Notes: generated by a model not told the origin, from the letters alone. Positions 10,216 through 31,761 are shown, counted from the first letter of the stretch. The stretch is 61,203 nt of DNA from a virus (IMGVR_UViG_3300042564_004703:1-61203); one strand, 5' to 3'. Program-made: numbers and translations.

Positions 10216-10413
10216 TCACGTCTTATTATATTCCTTTTCTATTATTTGTCTGCATGTTTTACTTCGTTCCGTTTGTTTTTTCGGCTTTTCAGCAACTCCA
10301 CAGTATAGTAGTAAAAAGACAGAAAGAGGAAAAATAACACCGAAAAATATTCGGAATAATTTGATACTCCACAACTCTTCGGTATACCCAACTCTCGATT
10401 GATTAATTGTCAT
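10216..10413 (-). CDS. small membrane protein of a truncated cassette
   Basis: 65 residues with one hydrophobic segment (residues 22-42: FFGVIFPLSVFLLLYCGVA) and a basic tail. The leader just upstream of the ATG carries GTTTAG-A-rich-CTAAAC, the same hairpin leader found before the minus-strand genes of cassettes 2 and 4. The gene ends up just before repeat R1, as in those cassettes. It is therefore probably the surviving half of a further, truncated cassette. Confidence 0.55.
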   Translation of the reverse strand: MTINQSRVGYTEELWSIKLFRIFFGVIFPLSVFLLLYCGVAEKPKKQTERSKTCRQIIEKEYNKT

Positions 10414-10468
10414 TGTTTAGTTTATTTCTAAACACTGCCTGTCATTTCAGCACTTACGCCATACAATG

Positions 10469-10603
10469 ACACACAACGTTTTGTGGCTTTGCGAGGTTTG
10501 GGGAAAGCCTTCCCAATTTTTTGATTTATCAATATTTTTCCAAGTACAAAACAGAGTTTCAGTTTATCACTTCCGCCCAAATCTTGCAAAACCGCTGTTA
10601 GCC
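10469..10603 (+). repeat. attC-like repeat R1
   Basis: Left box CACACAAC followed by GTTTTGTGGCTTTGCGAGG; right arm CTTGCAAAACCGCT ending in GTTAGCC. The arms pair over about 22 bp with mismatches and with an extra GTTTT-type bulge in the left arm, as in the seven related repeats. Length 135 bp, in the range of integron attC sites. Confidence 0.8.
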
Positions 10604-10677
10604 GTTCGGTTTTATTCTTTTGCTAATTTAGTTTCTTTTTTATATTTTAGCAAATTAATTAAATATTCTTATATACT

Positions 10678-11079
10678 ATGTCTGACCAACCTTTAGTTCC
10701 ATTCAAAGCTTACTTTGAGTTTCAATATAATGATAACTTAAATAAGTTATACCCTGAACATTTAGAAACTTATTTACAAAGGTCTTCCGATGATGCTCAA
10801 ACAGTTAAAACAGCAACTTTTTTAAAAAACTACTTAACAGGTGCAAAACTTCCAATATTTTTAAAAGACAGAAAAGTAGATTTTGATTATCACACTCGTC
10901 ACTCTATTTATCCTGAAAGTTTTTCGGTTACAAATTTAAGTCAGTCTGTTGAATTTAAGGTTAAGTCTGATGAAGTTACTGTTATACAAATAGTAAAAGA
11001 TGATATTACTTTTAGAACCTCAAGTGGTGAGGTAAGGACTGAAACTTTAACAGACCAAATTAAATTATTTAGTCTTTAG
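10678..11079 (+). CDS. cassette 1 protein, unknown
   Basis: 133 residues, soluble. N-terminal half helical, C-terminal half beta-rich (SVEFKVKSDEVTVIQIVKDD). It starts 75 nt after the cassette boundary, behind an AT-rich stretch that could carry a promoter. Its stop overlaps the stop of the opposing gene by 4 nt. Integron cassettes mostly carry proteins of unknown function, and this fits. Confidence 0.75.
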   Translation: MSDQPLVPFKAYFEFQYNDNLNKLYPEHLETYLQRSSDDAQTVKTATFLKNYLTGAKLPIFLKDRKVDFDYHTRHSIYPESFSVTNLSQSVEFKVKSDEVTVIQIVKDDITFRTSSGEVRTETLTDQIKLFSL

Positions 11080-11285
11080 ATTTTTCTGCTTTGAGATAAC
11101 TTTTCATCTGCACTTTCTAAAATTTCAAGTAAGTCTTTGTAAGTTGTCTCAAATCTTTTTCCTTCTTTTTCGGTACTGATAAGTATTTCTACTTTATCTT
11201 TTTCGTCTGCAATTGTTCTATTCATATTTTTGTCTGTGAATAGAAAGAACTCTACTTTGTTTTTTGTTAAATAACTTTCTGTCAT
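11076..11285 (-). CDS. cassette 1 convergent small protein
   Basis: 69 residues, charged (FFLFTDKNMNRTIADEKDKV). Starts only 37 nt inside the cassette end and reads back towards its partner. Overlap of 4 nt with the partner suggests the pair is maintained as a unit; an antagonist or immunity relation is conceivable but unproven. Confidence 0.65.
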   Translation of the reverse strand: MTESYLTKNKVEFFLFTDKNMNRTIADEKDKVEILISTEKEGKRFETTYKDLLEILESADEKLSQSRKI

Positions 11286-11321
11286 TTTTTATGTCTTTTT
11301 TAGCACGTTTTGCCAAACTGA

Positions 11322-11449
11322 CGGCTAACGTTTCGCAGCTACACGAGGTGCAAGGCTTCGTGACTGCTGGGTTTATATTTAATTTTATGTTTTTCTTGCG
11401 GTTTTGCAATTCCACTAAATCCTTGCATCTTGTGTAACTGCTGTTGTGC
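11322..11449 (+). repeat. attC-like repeat R2
   Basis: Left box GGCTAAC, then GTTTCGCAGCTACACGAGG; right arm CATCTTGTGTAACTGCT ending GTTGTGC. The arms pair through GCAG-TACACgAGgTGCAAGG with mismatches. Same polarity as R1. Confidence 0.8.
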
Positions 11450-11548
11450 AATCGGCTTTTTGTTCACTTCGTATTTTCGACTATACTTTTTTCACCGCAA
11501 TTTAATAATATTTTACTATTTTCGCATTTCACTTTAAACAATTTTATT

Positions 11549-12031
11549 ATGGATTTTACTCAAGAAATACTTCCTTATATAAATTCTGCTATTTTAGTTT
11601 TTGGAGGTTGGTTTTTAAAACGTATTATTAATGACAAAAATTCCCAAATAGAAACCCTAACTAAAAACAGTAATTCGACTACAGAACTTTTAAATTCTAC
11701 TAAAGTGTTAATAGAAATGTATGATATACAAAAATTTAAAGAACACTTAGATTTTACAATTAATACTTTAGAGGAACGTCATAAAGTTGAAATTGAAAAA
11801 GTTTTTAAACTTTCAGAGCAAAATGTTAAAGATAAGATATTAGAGTTGGCTTCTCCTTGGTTAATTAAGTATCAAGAGCTATTAAACTATCAATTCCATT
11901 TTCTACTTCAAATGTCAGAGGAAGATTTAGAAAAAGTCCTTAAATCGCTTCCTGAAAATAAAGAGTTTATACAATATCAAATTAAAGCTATAAAGGAAAC
12001 TGGTAATCTTAAAGAACTCCCAAAGAACTGA
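11549..12031 (+). CDS. cassette 2 membrane-anchored coiled-coil protein
   Basis: 160 residues from the ATG at 11549; the longer frame from 11444 runs into the attC-like repeat and is rejected. One N-terminal membrane segment (residues 7-22) is followed by a long charged helix (residues 25-110) typical of coiled coils. It is probably an inner-membrane protein with a cytoplasmic helical domain. Function unknown. Confidence 0.7.
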   Translation: MDFTQEILPYINSAILVFGGWFLKRIINDKNSQIETLTKNSNSTTELLNSTKVLIEMYDIQKFKEHLDFTINTLEERHKVEIEKVFKLSEQNVKDKILELASPWLIKYQELLNYQFHFLLQMSEEDLEKVLKSLPENKEFIQYQIKAIKETGNLKELPKN

Positions 12032-12221
12032 TTTTGTCAACTCTGTTTCTATAATACATTTTTTTCATTTCAATATAATTTTCCATTGTTGTTACACCAA
12101 GAGCTACAAAATATAAATGCTCTTTGTCAAAAGTATCAAGAAAATATTTTTCACAATCACAATCTAATTTTTTAGATTGTAAAAACTTTATAAGTTTAGT
12201 ACACAACCATTTTTTTAACAT
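12009..12221 (-). CDS. cassette 2 convergent small protein
   Basis: 70 residues, basic N-terminus with Cys residues (CDCEKYF). Its leader contains TGTTTAG-A-rich-CTAAGC directly before GAAAAATG, the shared hairpin leader of cassette minus-strand genes. Overlaps its partner by 23 nt at the 3' ends. Confidence 0.65.
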   Translation of the reverse strand: MLKKWLCTKLIKFLQSKKLDCDCEKYFLDTFDKEHLYFVALGVTTMENYIEMKKMYYRNRVDKISSLGVL

Positions 12222-12279
12222 TTTTCGCTTAGTTTTTTTCTAAACATTGTGTTTTCAGCGTTAGTTCTGTTAAGCTGTT

Positions 12280-12418
12280 GCACAACGTTTTGTGGCTTCA
12301 AGAAGTGGCGTAACTTCAAGACTGCCGTTAATAAATAATTACTGTTTTTTAGTTTTTACGCCGAAACTTTACTGATAAATCCTAAGCCTAGCCATTTCTT
12401 GAAACCACTGTTAGCAAA
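12280..12418 (+). repeat. attC-like repeat R3
   Basis: Left box GCACAAC, then GTTTTGTGGCTTCAAGAAG; right arm GCCATTTCTTGAAACCACT ending GTTAGC. The arms pair through GTGG-TTCAAGAA-TGGC, one of the clearest stems of the set. 139 bp. Confidence 0.85.
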
Positions 12419-12491
12419 TCGGCTTTCTTTTTTCTTCCACAATTTAGTTATTTTTTCTTACTTTTGGTAAATCATTTTAAAACTTTAAATT

Positions 12492-12710
12492 ATGAACTAT
12501 CAAGAAGCTTTAGGTTATTTAGATTTAAACCTTTCAAAATTTCAAGAGTTATACCCAAATTCTATTTTTATTATCTCGCCATACTTATATAAAGATTTAG
12601 AAAGATTTATAAAGGATATAAATGAAAAAGGTATAAATAATGTAGATGTTAAAGATTATTCTTCTGATGGTCGTTTTGGTGTTTACGAATGGCGTTATAG
12701 AGCGTTGTAG
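12492..12710 (+). CDS. cassette 3 protein, unknown
   Basis: 72 residues, soluble and acidic (MNYQEALGYLDLNLSKFQEL). A TTAC-TTTTGG element lies about 30 nt upstream and may serve as a -7 box. The last 62 nt overlap the opposing gene. Function unknown. Confidence 0.65.
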   Translation: MNYQEALGYLDLNLSKFQELYPNSIFIISPYLYKDLERFIKDINEKGINNVDVKDYSSDGRFGVYEWRYRAL

Positions 12711-12972
12711 GATTAGTTGTATATCTGTTTATATTTAAAGATACTTTTACAATATCTGAATTTTCTATTTTAAAAGTTGGAAGAACTAAATATTTATTTT
12801 TAAATTCTAAAATAGTGTCGGCTATTTTATTCTCTAACTCTTTTTCTAATTCATCGTATTGAGATTCTGTGTAAGTTTCACTATCAGAAGCTAAATAGTT
12901 AATTCCTTCCTCGTTTCCTTTGTCAAAATTTTCTGAATATTCTTTTAAAATGTTTAAATCTTTTTCTGTCAT
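12649..12972 (-). CDS. cassette 3 convergent protein
   Basis: 107 residues from the ATG at 12972. An upstream in-frame ATG exists at 13005, but the stretch between contains GTTACT-A-rich-AGTAAC, a hairpin leader like that of the other cassettes, so the inner start is preferred. Acidic, helical middle; no domain is recognised. Confidence 0.6.
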   Translation of the reverse strand: MTEKDLNILKEYSENFDKGNEEGINYLASDSETYTESQYDELEKELENKIADTILEFKNKYLVLPTFKIENSDIVKVSLNINRYTTNPTTLYNAIRKHQNDHQKNNL

Positions 12973-13051
12973 TTTTGTTACTTGTTTTTTTAGTAACATT
13001 ATCAAACTGCTATTTTCCGTTTTAGTTTTTTGCGGATTTTTGGTTAAGCTG

Positions 13052-13189
13052 TTTGCTAACGTTTTGCTACTAGGCGATGTAGCGGGTTAAATATTCACTG
13101 ACTTTTAAGGTTCGCCTAAACTTTAAAAGTATAAAATTTCCATTCAGTTAAGCCTGTTGCCGCTATATTCGCTTAGTAGCTGTTGTGTG
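13052..13189 (+). repeat. attC-like repeat R4
   Basis: Left box TTTGCTAAC, then GTTTTGCTACTAGGCGATG; right arm CCGCTATATTCGCTTAGTAGCT ending GTTGTGTG. The arms pair through GCTACTA-GCG-TAGCGG with mismatches. Confidence 0.85.
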
Positions 13190-13249
13190 TTCGTTGTTTT
13201 TTATTTTATCAAATAAATTTTTTCTATCTTCGGCAAAAATTAATTTATT

Positions 13250-13672
13250 ATGACTTATGAAAAAATTTACGAAGAATTAAAAGATAACATAAAAAAGTTA
13301 CTGATTAATATTGCTTTCTTATTCCCTTTTTGGGCGTTGGCTATTTTTATCACAAAACCCTCTTTTTTAAAAAACCCTATTCATATTCAATTTATTTTGA
13401 CTTTCTGTTTAAGTTTTATGTGGTTATTAATTTATTTCTTAATTGCTGTTTTTATTGCAAGACTTTTCATAAAAAATAATCCATACATTATTCTTGAAAT
13501 TGGTAATCTTTTAGGTATTATGTCGCTTTGTGTATTTATAAATATAGCATATCACTATAATCAATCTTTAACAGATTTATTACAAAACAGTTTTTTATTC
13601 TCTACTTTCTTTTTAGCATTGGTAGCCATTCTAAATTTTGCCAACCATATTCAGAAGTCCAAAAAAGTATAA
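13250..13672 (+). CDS. cassette 4 membrane protein, four helices
   Basis: 140 residues with four predicted membrane helices (about residues 18-36, 46-72, 80-100 and 112-130). No family is recognised. A TATCTTCGG element lies about 20 nt before the ATG and resembles a Bacteroidota -7 box. It overlaps its convergent partner by 71 nt. Confidence 0.7.
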   Translation: MTYEKIYEELKDNIKKLLINIAFLFPFWALAIFITKPSFLKNPIHIQFILTFCLSFMWLLIYFLIAVFIARLFIKNNPYIILEIGNLLGIMSLCVFINIAYHYNQSLTDLLQNSFLFSTFFLALVAILNFANHIQKSKKV

Positions 13673-13853
13673 AACCTATACACATTATTGGTATCCCAAT
13701 ATATGCTGATTTAATAAATAGTTCCATAGAAAAAAAGTTTAGAGTTTCTCTATCTACTATTTCTATTTTAAAAGGGTTTTCTCTTTTAAAGATTATTACA
13801 CCCATATAAAACATCCATAAAAACAAACACAGTAAAATTAAGTTGATTATCAT
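13602..13853 (-). CDS. cassette 4 convergent membrane protein
   Basis: 83 residues with two hydrophobic segments (residues 2-22 and 50-68). The leader contains GTTTAG-AAAAAAA-CTAAAC directly before GAAAAATG. Both products of this cassette are membrane proteins, which suggests they act together in the envelope. Confidence 0.65.
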   Translation of the reverse strand: MIINLILLCLFLWMFYMGVIIFKRENPFKIEIVDRETLNFFSMELFIKSAYIGIPIMCIGFILFWTSEYGWQNLEWLPMLKRK

Positions 13854-13916
13854 TTTTCGTTTAGTTTTTTTCTAAACACTACCTATCATTTTCAGCACTT
13901 ACGCCATACAATAACA

Positions 13917-14044
13917 GCCAACGTTTTGCAGCTACAAGAAGTTGCGTACTTCATTCACTGCTGATTATTAATTAGTTATTTTTTTGTTTGGGGTGTTTCC
14001 GAATACACAGCAATTCTAGCAATTTATTGTAGGTGGTGTTATGG
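13917..14044 (+). repeat. attC-like repeat R5
   Basis: Left box GCCAAC, then GTTTTGCAGCTACAAGAAG; right arm GCAATTTATTGTAGGTGGT ending GTTATGG. The arms pair through CTACAA-AA-TTGC. It directly abuts the stop codon of the groES-like gene, where the forward cassette array meets the phage replication genes. Confidence 0.75.
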
Positions 14045-16505: not shown

Positions 16506-16530
16506 TAAAATGTAATCTTTTTATAAATTA

Positions 16531-16667
16531 TTTTTAACGTTTCGTGGCTTTATGAAGTTGCTGATTAGCAATCACTTAACCTTTGATTAATAATTATTTT
16601 TTACAAGTACACACTTGCCTTTTGTTTATTTACCACAGCAGTAATTTTATAAAACCACCGTTGTATT
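16531..16667 (+). repeat. attC-like repeat R6 (solitary)
   Basis: Left TTTTTAAC, then GTTTCGTGGCTTTATGAAG; right arm TTTTATAAAACCACC ending GTTGTATT. The arms pair through GTGG-TTTAT-AA-TT-CTG. No cassette with matching ends lies on either side. It is inserted between two minus-strand promoters. Confidence 0.75.
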
Positions 16668-16677
16668 ATTTCTTCTG

Positions 16678-24739: not shown

Positions 24740-24979
24740 ATGGAAGAAGTAATAAAACTAAAATTTAAAAGATGTCCACCGTTTGAAAAGGAAAAGCACT
24801 TAAATTTTACTTCACAACAAGCAAGATTTTTCAAAAAAATTGAAAATTATTGTGAGTCATCAACCGAAAAACAAATAGAAGTGTTAATAGATATTATTAA
24901 ACCTTATTATACAAGACAATCAAAAGAGTCTTTAGGCTTTCCTTTAAAGTATAATTTACTTAATGTCTCTACGAATTAA
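24740..24979 (+). CDS. cassette 7 convergent small protein
   Basis: 79 residues, basic and helical (MEEVIKLKFKRCPPFEKEKH). A longer frame begins at 24620 but would cross the cassette end. It is the only plus-strand gene between 14 and 29 kb, explained by the convergent-pair design of the cassettes. Overlaps the partner's end by 24 nt. Confidence 0.6.
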   Translation: MEEVIKLKFKRCPPFEKEKHLNFTSQQARFFKKIENYCESSTEKQIEVLIDIIKPYYTRQSKESLGFPLKYNLLNVSTN

Positions 24980-25354
24980 TGTGTGTTCGTAGTCGTAAAG
25001 GTCTCGATGTGAATAGTTTCTGATATTACCATTTTCATCTTTACATTTGTATAATACCTCATTTGAAATTTCATTGTCAATAAAAATATCAATTATTTCG
25101 TACCATTGTGGTTTTACTTTACGTTGATTAGAATGAAAATACACTTCTTGACCAACCCTAAACCAAGCTCCTGGAAATACCTCATTTGTTAGAAAAAGAT
25201 TATTTTCCATATCTCTGTAAGTTACTCCATCTTGGTGCGTAAAATCATAAACAGGTATATTATGCGAGGTTTTGTATGTGTTAACTTTAGTTATTGTAAC
25301 TAAACTATTATCTAAACCCCAATAAACTTTTTGAAACAAATTGAATCTTGGCAT
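24956..25354 (-). CDS. cassette 7 protein with two barrel-like repeats
   Basis: 132 residues. Two halves look alike: FNLFQKVYWGLDNSLVTITK near residues 4-23 and RVGQEVYFHSN near 67-77, each opening a small beta barrel (KOW/SH3-like) and ending with an aspartate/aromatic motif. It starts about 74 nt after the cassette boundary. Function unknown; such barrels often bind nucleic acids or proteins. Confidence 0.65.
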   Translation of the reverse strand: MPRFNLFQKVYWGLDNSLVTITKVNTYKTSHNIPVYDFTHQDGVTYRDMENNLFLTNEVFPGAWFRVGQEVYFHSNQRKVKPQWYEIIDIFIDNEISNEVLYKCKDENGNIRNYSHRDLYDYEHTLIRRDIK

Positions 25355-29770: not shown

Positions 29771-30188
29771 TTTTATAGATGATATTTTTGAAGAAATAGG
29801 GGCTGACAAAGAACAGCAAATGGCAATAAAGTTTTGGTTAGATTATGTCGCAAAAGAAACAAAAGAAAATGAAGTATTTGCCATAGACATTCCAAAGATA
29901 GGAGTTTTACATAGAAACAGAACTTTAACTCAAAACTCTAAAAAGTATCTAAACAGAGACAGCGAAGAGTACGCAGAGATAATGAAGATGCTTTTAGAGA
30001 TGCAATATTTCAAAGAACAGAAAAATGAAAAAACCCCACATTGTAAAACACCATACACATACATAACAAGTAGTTATTTAAAGAAAAAATATGAATTACC
30101 ACAAATAAATAATTCAGATAAACAAGTAAAAGAAGTATATTCAGCAATAGAAAAAGAACAACAAAAACAGTATGAGCGAGGCTTTTAA
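29757..30188 (+). CDS. hypothetical protein upstream of groEL
   Basis: 143 residues, helical. A segment AIDIPKIGVLHRNR recalls the arm region of IHF/HU-like proteins (IP-x-hG-x-h), but the rest does not clearly fit. Overlaps the gene before by 14 nt and groEL by 17 nt. Confidence 0.7.
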   Translation: MKQISFIDDIFEEIGADKEQQMAIKFWLDYVAKETKENEVFAIDIPKIGVLHRNRTLTQNSKKYLNRDSEEYAEIMKMLLEMQYFKEQKNEKTPHCKTPYTYITSSYLKKKYELPQINNSDKQVKEVYSAIEKEQQKQYERGF

Positions 30189-31761
30189 ACACCAAGTATT
30201 AAGTAGAGAAGAAACACAAGAAAAAATTAAACAAGGAATTGATTTAGTAGTAAATCCTGTAAAGGTAACTTTAGGAAGAGGAGGAATGAATGTATTGTTA
30301 ATTCGAGATAACTTACTTCCTGTAATTACAAAGGACGGAGTTTCAGTAGCTAGAAACATACAACATGAAGACCCATTTGTGAACGCAGGAGCTATGTTAG
30401 TTAAGGAAGTATCTGCAAGAACAGAAGAATTATGTGGAGACGGTAGTTCAACTTCTAGTGTATTAGCTCAAGCAATATTTAATGAGGTTCAAAAGCACAA
30501 AAATATAAATCCAATTCAACTAAAAAAAGATTTAGAAAAAGTAACAGAAGAAGTTGTTGGACACCTAAAAAAATTAAGTCAAAAACCTAAGTCAAAAGTA
30601 AGACTTAAAGAAATTGCAGATATTTCCGCTAATGGAGATAAAGAAGTAGCTGATTTAGTTTATAAAGCTATTCAAAAAGTAGGAGAGACAGGAGTAATTA
30701 AAGTTGAAGAATCAGAAGATGTAGATTCAAGAGTAGAAGTTGTAGATGGTTATCAATTAGACACTCCATTCTATAATGCAGGTTTTATCACAAATCACGA
30801 TAAAATGACAGCAGAATTCTCCAATATGAATGTACTTTTATATGAAGGATTTTTAGAAACCTTTGACGATTTAGTCCCAACAATAAACGCAATAACAGAT
30901 TTTACAGACCCTGAAAACCCAAGAGTAGGTGGTTTATTAATTTTGTGCGACACAATCGACCCAAACACAGAAAACCAAATACTAAACTTTAAATCATTAG
31001 GACATAACTTTATGATTTTAAAAACTCCTTTATTTGGAATTCAAAGAACAGAGCTTTACCAGGATATTGCAACTTTAATCGGAGCACAAGTCTACTGCAA
31101 AGAAAAAGGAAAACCACTTACAGAAGTTAAATTAGAAGGATTAGGAAAAGTTAAGAAAGTTGTTTCTGACGTAAATAAGACACTATTAATAGGCACAGAA
31201 GGAAATACATCAGAAAGAATAAATACCATCAAAGAACAGCTTAAAAACTACCAAGGCGCGTCAAAAGAAAAACAAACAATAAAAGACAGACTTGGAAAAT
31301 TAGAAGGTGGTGTTGCAATGATTTATGTTGGTGGTGGCTCAAAATCCGACAAAAGAGAAAAAACAGATAGAGTAGATGACGCACTAAAAGCAGTTAAGTC
31401 TTGTATTGAAGAAGGATATGTAGCAGGAGCAGGAGTAACTTATTTAACTATTTCTAATATGTTGCAAGGAACTAATGAAGCCACACAAGTAATGAAAGAG
31501 GTATTAAAAGCACCTTTCTTACAAGTATATGAAAACGCAGGGATAAACGGAGAAGATTATTTAGATTATGTTTTAACTTCAGAATACGGCTCAGGAATTG
31601 ATATTGATAATGGAGAAAAAGTCAATCTTTTTGACATTGGAGTAATTGACCCAACAAAAGTAAGCAGATTAGCTTTAGAAAACGCAGTATCTGTTGTAAG
31701 TTTATTTACTTCTTTAGGAGCTTCAAGTTTTAATTCAGAACCTTTAATGCAAATGAGCTAA
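30172..31761 (+). CDS. groEL: GroEL-like group I chaperonin
   Basis: 529 residues, close to GroEL (548). Nucleotide-binding elements are present: VTLGRGGMNVLL (32-43; usually LGPKGRN), KDGVSVA (54-60), CGDGSSTSSVLAQ (88-100, with the catalytic-region Asp), GGVAMIYVGGG (379-389) and RVDDAL (400-405, matching the ATP-hydrolysing Asp of GroEL). The C-terminal Gly-Gly-Met tail is missing. It would form a folding chamber for phage proteins, probably capsid or tail proteins, with the GroES-like protein at 14045. It precedes the packaging and capsid genes, which suggests that role. Confidence 0.95.
   Translation: MSEAFKHQVLSREETQEKIKQGIDLVVNPVKVTLGRGGMNVLLIRDNLLPVITKDGVSVARNIQHEDPFVNAGAMLVKEVSARTEELCGDGSSTSSVLAQAIFNEVQKHKNINPIQLKKDLEKVTEEVVGHLKKLSQKPKSKVRLKEIADISANGDKEVADLVYKAIQKVGETGVIKVEESEDVDSRVEVVDGYQLDTPFYNAGFITNHDKMTAEFSNMNVLLYEGFLETFDDLVPTINAITDFTDPENPRVGGLLILCDTIDPNTENQILNFKSLGHNFMILKTPLFGIQRTELYQDIATLIGAQVYCKEKGKPLTEVKLEGLGKVKKVVSDVNKTLLIGTEGNTSERINTIKEQLKNYQGASKEKQTIKDRLGKLEGGVAMIYVGGGSKSDKREKTDRVDDALKAVKSCIEEGYVAGAGVTYLTISNMLQGTNEATQVMKEVLKAPFLQVYENAGINGEDYLDYVLTSEYGSGIDIDNGEKVNLFDIGVIDPTKVSRLALENAVSVVSLFTSLGASSFNSEPLMQMS

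Follow-up and report, generated by a model that had tools for sequence, protein, structure and literature searches.

The window analysed here is the entire IMG/VR record IMGVR_UViG_3300042564_004703, a viral sequence of 61,203 bases. Between positions 10466 and 14049 it carries five hairpin sites of one polarity, four strong and one degraded, which resemble the attC sites of integrons and delimit a small array of gene cassettes. An earlier note on this DNA had pointed to five same-polarity repeats, and all five were recovered with R1, a covariance model derived from an alignment of 62 sites (A1), at start-to-start distances of 852, 957, 774 and 862 bp. The training alignment included four of the window sites; site 5 and two solitary sites elsewhere in the window lie outside it. 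No Rfam family matched in the window. The sites and the units that they bound are the following.

10466..10608, model match +, true polarity -: attC-like site 1, AAC|G crossover box 10475-10478, R1 106 bits
11318..11454, -: attC-like site 2, AAC|G 11327-11330, R1 75.5 bits
12275..12421, -: attC-like site 3, AAC|G 12284-12287, R1 79 bits
13049..13193, -: attC-like site 4, AAC|G 13058-13061, R1 84.7 bits
13911..14049, -: attC-like site 5, AAC|G 13920-13923, R1 52.2 bits, right (far) arm degraded
10399..10477, -: truncated unit X1, start, paralogous to that of cassette A (89% over 44 bp); box GTTGTGTG matching the site 4 box
10478..11329, -: cassette c2, site 1 plus body; boxes match; convergent open reading frames (ORFs) 11076-11285 (-, 69 aa) and 10678-11079 (+, 133 aa)
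11330..12286, -: cassette c3, site 2 plus body; boxes match; ORFs 12009-12221 (-, 70 aa) and a 160-aa ORF (+) ending at 12031
12287..13060, -: cassette c4, site 3 plus body; boxes match; 116-aa ORF (-) ending at 12649 and ORF 12492-12710 (+, 72 aa)
13061..13922, -: cassette A, site 4 plus body; boxes mismatch; ORFs 13602-13853 (-, 83 aa) and 13250-13672 (+, 140 aa)

Each window cassette holds two convergent small ORFs, none of a clear family. That every unit has its own matching start and end boxes, differing from unit to unit, had been proposed at the outset and holds for three of the four units, whose boxes agree at positions 1-6 and 9 (GTTAGCCG/CGGCTAAC, GTTGTGCAA/TTGCACAAC and GTTAGCAAA/TTTGCTAAC), but not for the fourth, which starts with GTTGTGTG and ends with CAGCCAAC. 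From random-pairing frequencies, the chance of a full six-position match is about 0.4% per pair, giving p ~3e-7 for three units out of four. The paralogous starts of X1 and cassette A, and the agreement between the X1 box and that of site 4, suggest that A and X1 are two copies of an older cassette and that c2-c4 probably entered the array between them.

A family of covarying hairpins

Strongly covarying hairpins of ~140 nt make up the family to which the sites belong. A pattern search detected the repeat on many further viral contigs, along with many chance matches; the arm complementarity of these matches is bimodal, about 95-107 of the viral-contig sites being real and the rest chance. The A1 alignment displays invariant AACGTTT.G and CTGTT motifs, a long stem and a conserved mismatch near the stem base. 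Covariance support, whose absence the earlier note had named among the outcomes that would refute its proposal, is present both in the R1 matches and in compensatory changes at 17 of the 22 stem pairs, with 92.2% of the cells paired against 65.2% after shuffling and 30-47% after sliding. The boxes follow a consensus of ~NNRCYNNTAAC / GTTANNRGY with asymmetric spacers (GTTTT versus T), and in 183 of 211 sites the better computed fold belongs to the strand equivalent to the classical bottom one.

Unit boundaries and cassette exchange

Box matching is general in other copies of the array. Across 217 adjacent chromosomal site pairs, a set that includes the window's own 4, the bases after GTT complement those before the next AAC at 95-98% per position (positions 1-6), against 27-60% for random pairing and a near-random level for pairing within one site. 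The corresponding match in 113 phage site pairs is 89-100%. These values were obtained with covariance-model coordinates, which superseded a regex-based search that yielded 75 sites only and diluted the box test. A second hairpin class, with GCATTGGC / GCCAATGC arms (L207 4863-5057, L206 3874-4039 and L112 about 961-1708), was also observed; it obeys the same box rule and receives weak R1 scores.

The same cassette occurs at several positions of one array, the identity being bounded on both sides by the left-arm AAC|G. Different genes lie between the sites in relatives; with covariance support present and box matching general, none of the three refuting outcomes named in the earlier note was seen. 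Two pairs of phage contigs capture the gain or loss of a single cassette: L109 and L112 are 100% identical around the site except for one 756-bp cassette, and L081 and L100 except for one of 476 bp, both breaking at AACG^TT. The site borne by the inserted cassette of L112 is of a different sequence class, an argument against homologous recombination. As the breakpoints fall at the left AAC|G, crossover maps to the left arm and the true attC to the minus strand, reversing the polarity first assigned, in which the unit boundary lay at the right GTT. In the corrected polarity the unit reads TT... body ... attC ... G, as in integrons, with one attC per mobile unit. Given the box matching and the one-cassette differences broken at AACG^TT, these sequences make it very likely that cassettes move by site-specific recombination, as in integrons.

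In this polarity the longer ORF is forward in 213 of 227 chromosomal cassettes, and chromosomal cassette ORFs of at least 80 aa start at a median of 40 nt past the crossover. Phage cassettes (viral loci such as L213, L209 and L109) have the opposite coding direction relative to the site, in 107 of 113 cases versus 14 of 227 for chromosomal ones; of these 107 phage ORFs, 39 have their start within the hairpin and 20 apparently stop at the TAA of the TAAC box. Among 100 cassette ORFs from the L170-L204 arrays, at least one each matched the Abi/DRT reverse transcriptase, AbiLi, AbiH, Pycsar cyclase-like and SMI1/KNR4 families.

Distribution in chromosomes, phages and plasmids

A strict pattern applied to 84,980 species gave 12 matches, all in Bacteroidota and 9 of them in Flavobacterium or Flavobacteriaceae, with 5 to 66 R1 sites in each of these 12 genomes. 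At least one R1 site was found in 101 of 121 sampled Flavobacterium genomes (at most 26 candidates scored per genome) and R1 sites in 108 of 296 sampled Bacteroidota genomes (at most 10 scored), these prevalences being lower bounds. Many of the sites line up in long one-direction arrays; genome G057, for example, has one of about 30 sites and G006 one of about 20. Isolated Flavobacterium phages (filifjonk9-1, 6H and 1H) and plasmids of Flavobacterium and Myroides bear sites of this family too, and weaker or variant ones are found on Empedobacter, Riemerella and one Salmonella IncC plasmid. On the Empedobacter plasmid pLPY03, lnu(H) lies between the matching boxes GTTGGCGG/CCGCCAAC (L211 3820-4950). 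To judge from their sequences, chromosomes, phages and some resistance plasmids of Flavobacterium and its relatives carry the same kind of units. Plasmids related to pLPY03 also have catB, an aminoglycoside phosphotransferase gene, ereD and tet(X) near such sites. Arrays of this type, which had been thought unusual in phages and in Bacteroidota, prove to be common both in the chromosomes and in the phages of Flavobacterium.

A tyrosine recombinase and an attI-like site beside the arrays

Ten loci encode a tyrosine recombinase at the array end that is its start in the corrected polarity, the 3' end of the gene facing the array. Between the two runs a short conserved stretch ending in TATA...WAG^TT, followed by the first cassette box; its sequence and place mark it as an attI-like site at chromosomal and viral loci alike. 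The earlier note had proposed a search for an intI-type recombinase: the tyrosine recombinase that stands beside chromosomal arrays is not a typical IntI, and the phage record has no tyrosine recombinase. Two recombinase loci, L176 and L140, have no strong sites, and the Ferruginibacter locus L177 has weak ones.

In sequence comparisons the array recombinase resembles XerA and IntI. It matches the integron-integrase profile TIGR02249 in nine genomes (E ~1e-28 to 1e-39), falls below the cut-off in all 12, and lacks the IntI-specific insertion, residues 181-240 of IntI4 corresponding to 18 residues. An extra N-terminal domain of about 60 residues is present, with a sub-threshold HARP-like match in one relative. 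Two trees, the first long-branched and the second pruned, both leave the array recombinases apart from the two IntI sequences and the order of array and IntI enzymes unsettled.

With a threshold of E<=1e-50, the recombinase is present in 37 of 44 Flavobacterium genomes with at least 10 sites, in 24 of 57 with fewer and in 5 of 20 with none (37/44 versus 29/77 others, Fisher p=6e-7). On four viral contigs the recombinase is shorter; its gene and an array lie in the classical divergent layout, and the attI core is the same. One of the four also encodes a major head protein. Another tyrosine recombinase, of 328 aa, exists in several near-identical copies in G057 (L185 3571-4554 and 7533-8516), one of which adjoins a lone site.

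The phage and its solitary sites

The terminase encoded in the window bears a distant likeness to its counterparts in Cellulophaga phages, to which this phage is related. Other genes specify a UvsX-like recombinase, a primase/helicase and a GroEL-like chaperonin, the last at 30172-31761 (PHROG, E 4.6e-118). The window region gave no DNA match to known phages, and no relatives of the terminase were found in the viral contigs. With five clustered sites and no integrase in the record, the array qualifies as a cluster of attC sites lacking an integron integrase (CALIN), as identified by R1 and not by IntegronFinder. Two further sites stand alone outside the array interval.

16527..16671, + (strand of the model match): solitary attC-like site, the sixth, R1 72.3 bits
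25417..25559, - (strand of the model match): solitary attC-like site, the seventh, inverted, R1 72.7 bits with filters off

An ORF at 24956-25354 (-) comes after the inverted site, for which no matching end box was seen in the window sequence.

Proposed mechanism and alternative explanations

We consider it highly probable that the phage carries in this region an array of integron-type gene cassettes lacking a recombinase gene, mobilised in trans by a Flavobacteriia tyrosine recombinase, which upholds the initial idea of a mobile, CALIN-like array without its own integrase. Each cassette would be a circle-forming unit composed of a short gene body and one ~140-nt attC-like hairpin. The enzyme would be the tyrosine recombinase found beside the chromosomal arrays, provided to the phage by its host or by another phage; it would bind the folded single strand of the hairpin and exchange strands at the AACG^TT box. 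Cassettes would thereby be excised, and inserted at attC or attI without homology.

Several observations weigh against this mechanism. The whole 61,203-base record encodes no tyrosine recombinase (PF00589), so the cassettes would need an enzyme acting in trans, and no relatives of two window cassette proteins were found in the viral contigs. Forty Flavobacterium genomes have sites and no recombinase match at the above threshold, and 5 have the recombinase and no sites. The mismatched boxes of cassette A and the degradation of site 5 suggest that part of the array may be a fossil. Taken further, these two features, together with the isolated sites at 16527 and 25417, would fit a dead relic captured from a host chromosome and deprived of its mobility. 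We regard such a relic as unlikely, as the boxes are perfect in three of the four cassettes, the window ORFs lie on two strands, unlike those of chromosomal cassettes with one dominant strand, and related phage arrays display very recent cassette gain or loss.

A very improbable account would see the hairpins as intergenic regulatory elements of phages, either terminators or processing sites, and the cassette differences as products of homologous recombination between repeats. The repeats are indeed alike enough to recombine, and many phage ORFs begin in or just past the hairpin and end on or close to the TAAC box. However, breakpoints occur only at AACG^TT, even between sites of different sequence classes (L112), the box match goes with the cassette and not with the site, and chromosomal arrays have a recombinase and an attI-like site at one end. 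A more serious contender, though still the lesser possibility, is common descent with ordinary IntI integrons, the arrays forming a divergent lineage whose attC sites are missed by the usual models. The shared logic of attI, attC, G^TT crossover, self-matching boxes and bottom-strand folding bias argues for it, as does the integron-integrase profile match in nine genomes. Against it stand the scores below the cut-off in 12 of 12 genomes, the replacement of ~60 model positions over the IntI-specific insertion by ~18 residues, the separation from the two IntI sequences in both trees, albeit with an unsettled placement, and the failure of R1 to find any site in two classical integron regions.

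Beyond the window, we lean towards a broader reading: most Flavobacterium genomes would harbour an integron-like cassette system peculiar to Bacteroidota, built on a non-IntI recombinase lineage, which has escaped notice because IntI and its attC are what standard tools model. A single cassette pool would serve chromosomes, phages and resistance plasmids alike, with phages as carriers and sometimes as owners of the recombinase. Should the system work as proposed, a major route of gene acquisition would have been missed in this phylum. The cassettes, which include a reverse transcriptase and an Abi gene, would then be a further library of phage-defence genes, and phages would be seen to carry such arrays, in some cases apparently together with a recombinase gene of their own. 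With candidates for both the recombinase and attI, the system can be tested directly.

Comparison with known systems

The arrays share with integron gene cassettes and sedentary chromosomal integrons (IntI, attI, attC) tandem cassettes with self-matching ends, a G^TT crossover in the corrected polarity, an attC whose bottom strand is computed to fold better, an attI-like site beside the recombinase gene and recombinase-less CALINs elsewhere. They differ in the missing IntI insertion, in the asymmetric spacers, in the 3' end of the recombinase gene that faces the array in the sampled chromosomes, and in a site model, R1, without a match in the two classical integron regions. The canonical attC consensus is RYYYAAC / GTTRRRY (PMC9892861), from which the family consensus given above departs when the two are compared, GTTANNRGY standing in place of GTTRRRY. 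As the recombinase lacks the feature that defines IntI, the system is set apart from the classical integron family, though it appears to work like an integron; it is an integron-like variant system, not a proven IntI integron. In the integron of Treponema denticola, too, the recombinase gene is inverted with respect to classical integrons, a likeness to the chromosomal loci drawn by description only.

IntegronFinder 2.0 reported one complete integron within Bacteroidetes proper, in Salinibacter (PMC9024848), and the Flavobacterium chromosome and phage arrays are not listed as integrons in accessible surveys. CALINs were already described in virulent phages, one of them infecting Polaribacter (PMC9892861). 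These are likewise attC clusters without an integrase, with methyltransferases among their cassettes; the family described here differs by its own recombinase lineage and wide chromosomal range, and R1 found no site in the Polaribacter phage P12002L, a known phage CALIN. In the literature searched, with bioRxiv and subscription journals outside its scope, no description of the site family was found, and one 2026 paper contains a single attC-like unit.

In that study, aph(3')-IVb entered the Riemerella chromosome without homology as a gene with 27 bp and a 140-bp attC-like hairpin, and lnu(H) and blaRATA had earlier shown the same homology-independent entry in Riemerella anatipestifer (PMC13148043). 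No recombinase, attI, array or wider family was named by the authors, who described the mechanism as not elucidated. The likeness to our cassettes is close: a gene, a short 5' part and a 140-bp attC-like 3' hairpin integrate as a unit, and lnu(H) is the very gene found here between matching boxes. The Riemerella data are independent experimental support for a similarly built unit, and the system proposed here, if real, could in turn explain how resistance genes such as lnu(H) and aph(3')-IVb are taken up without homology in that genus.

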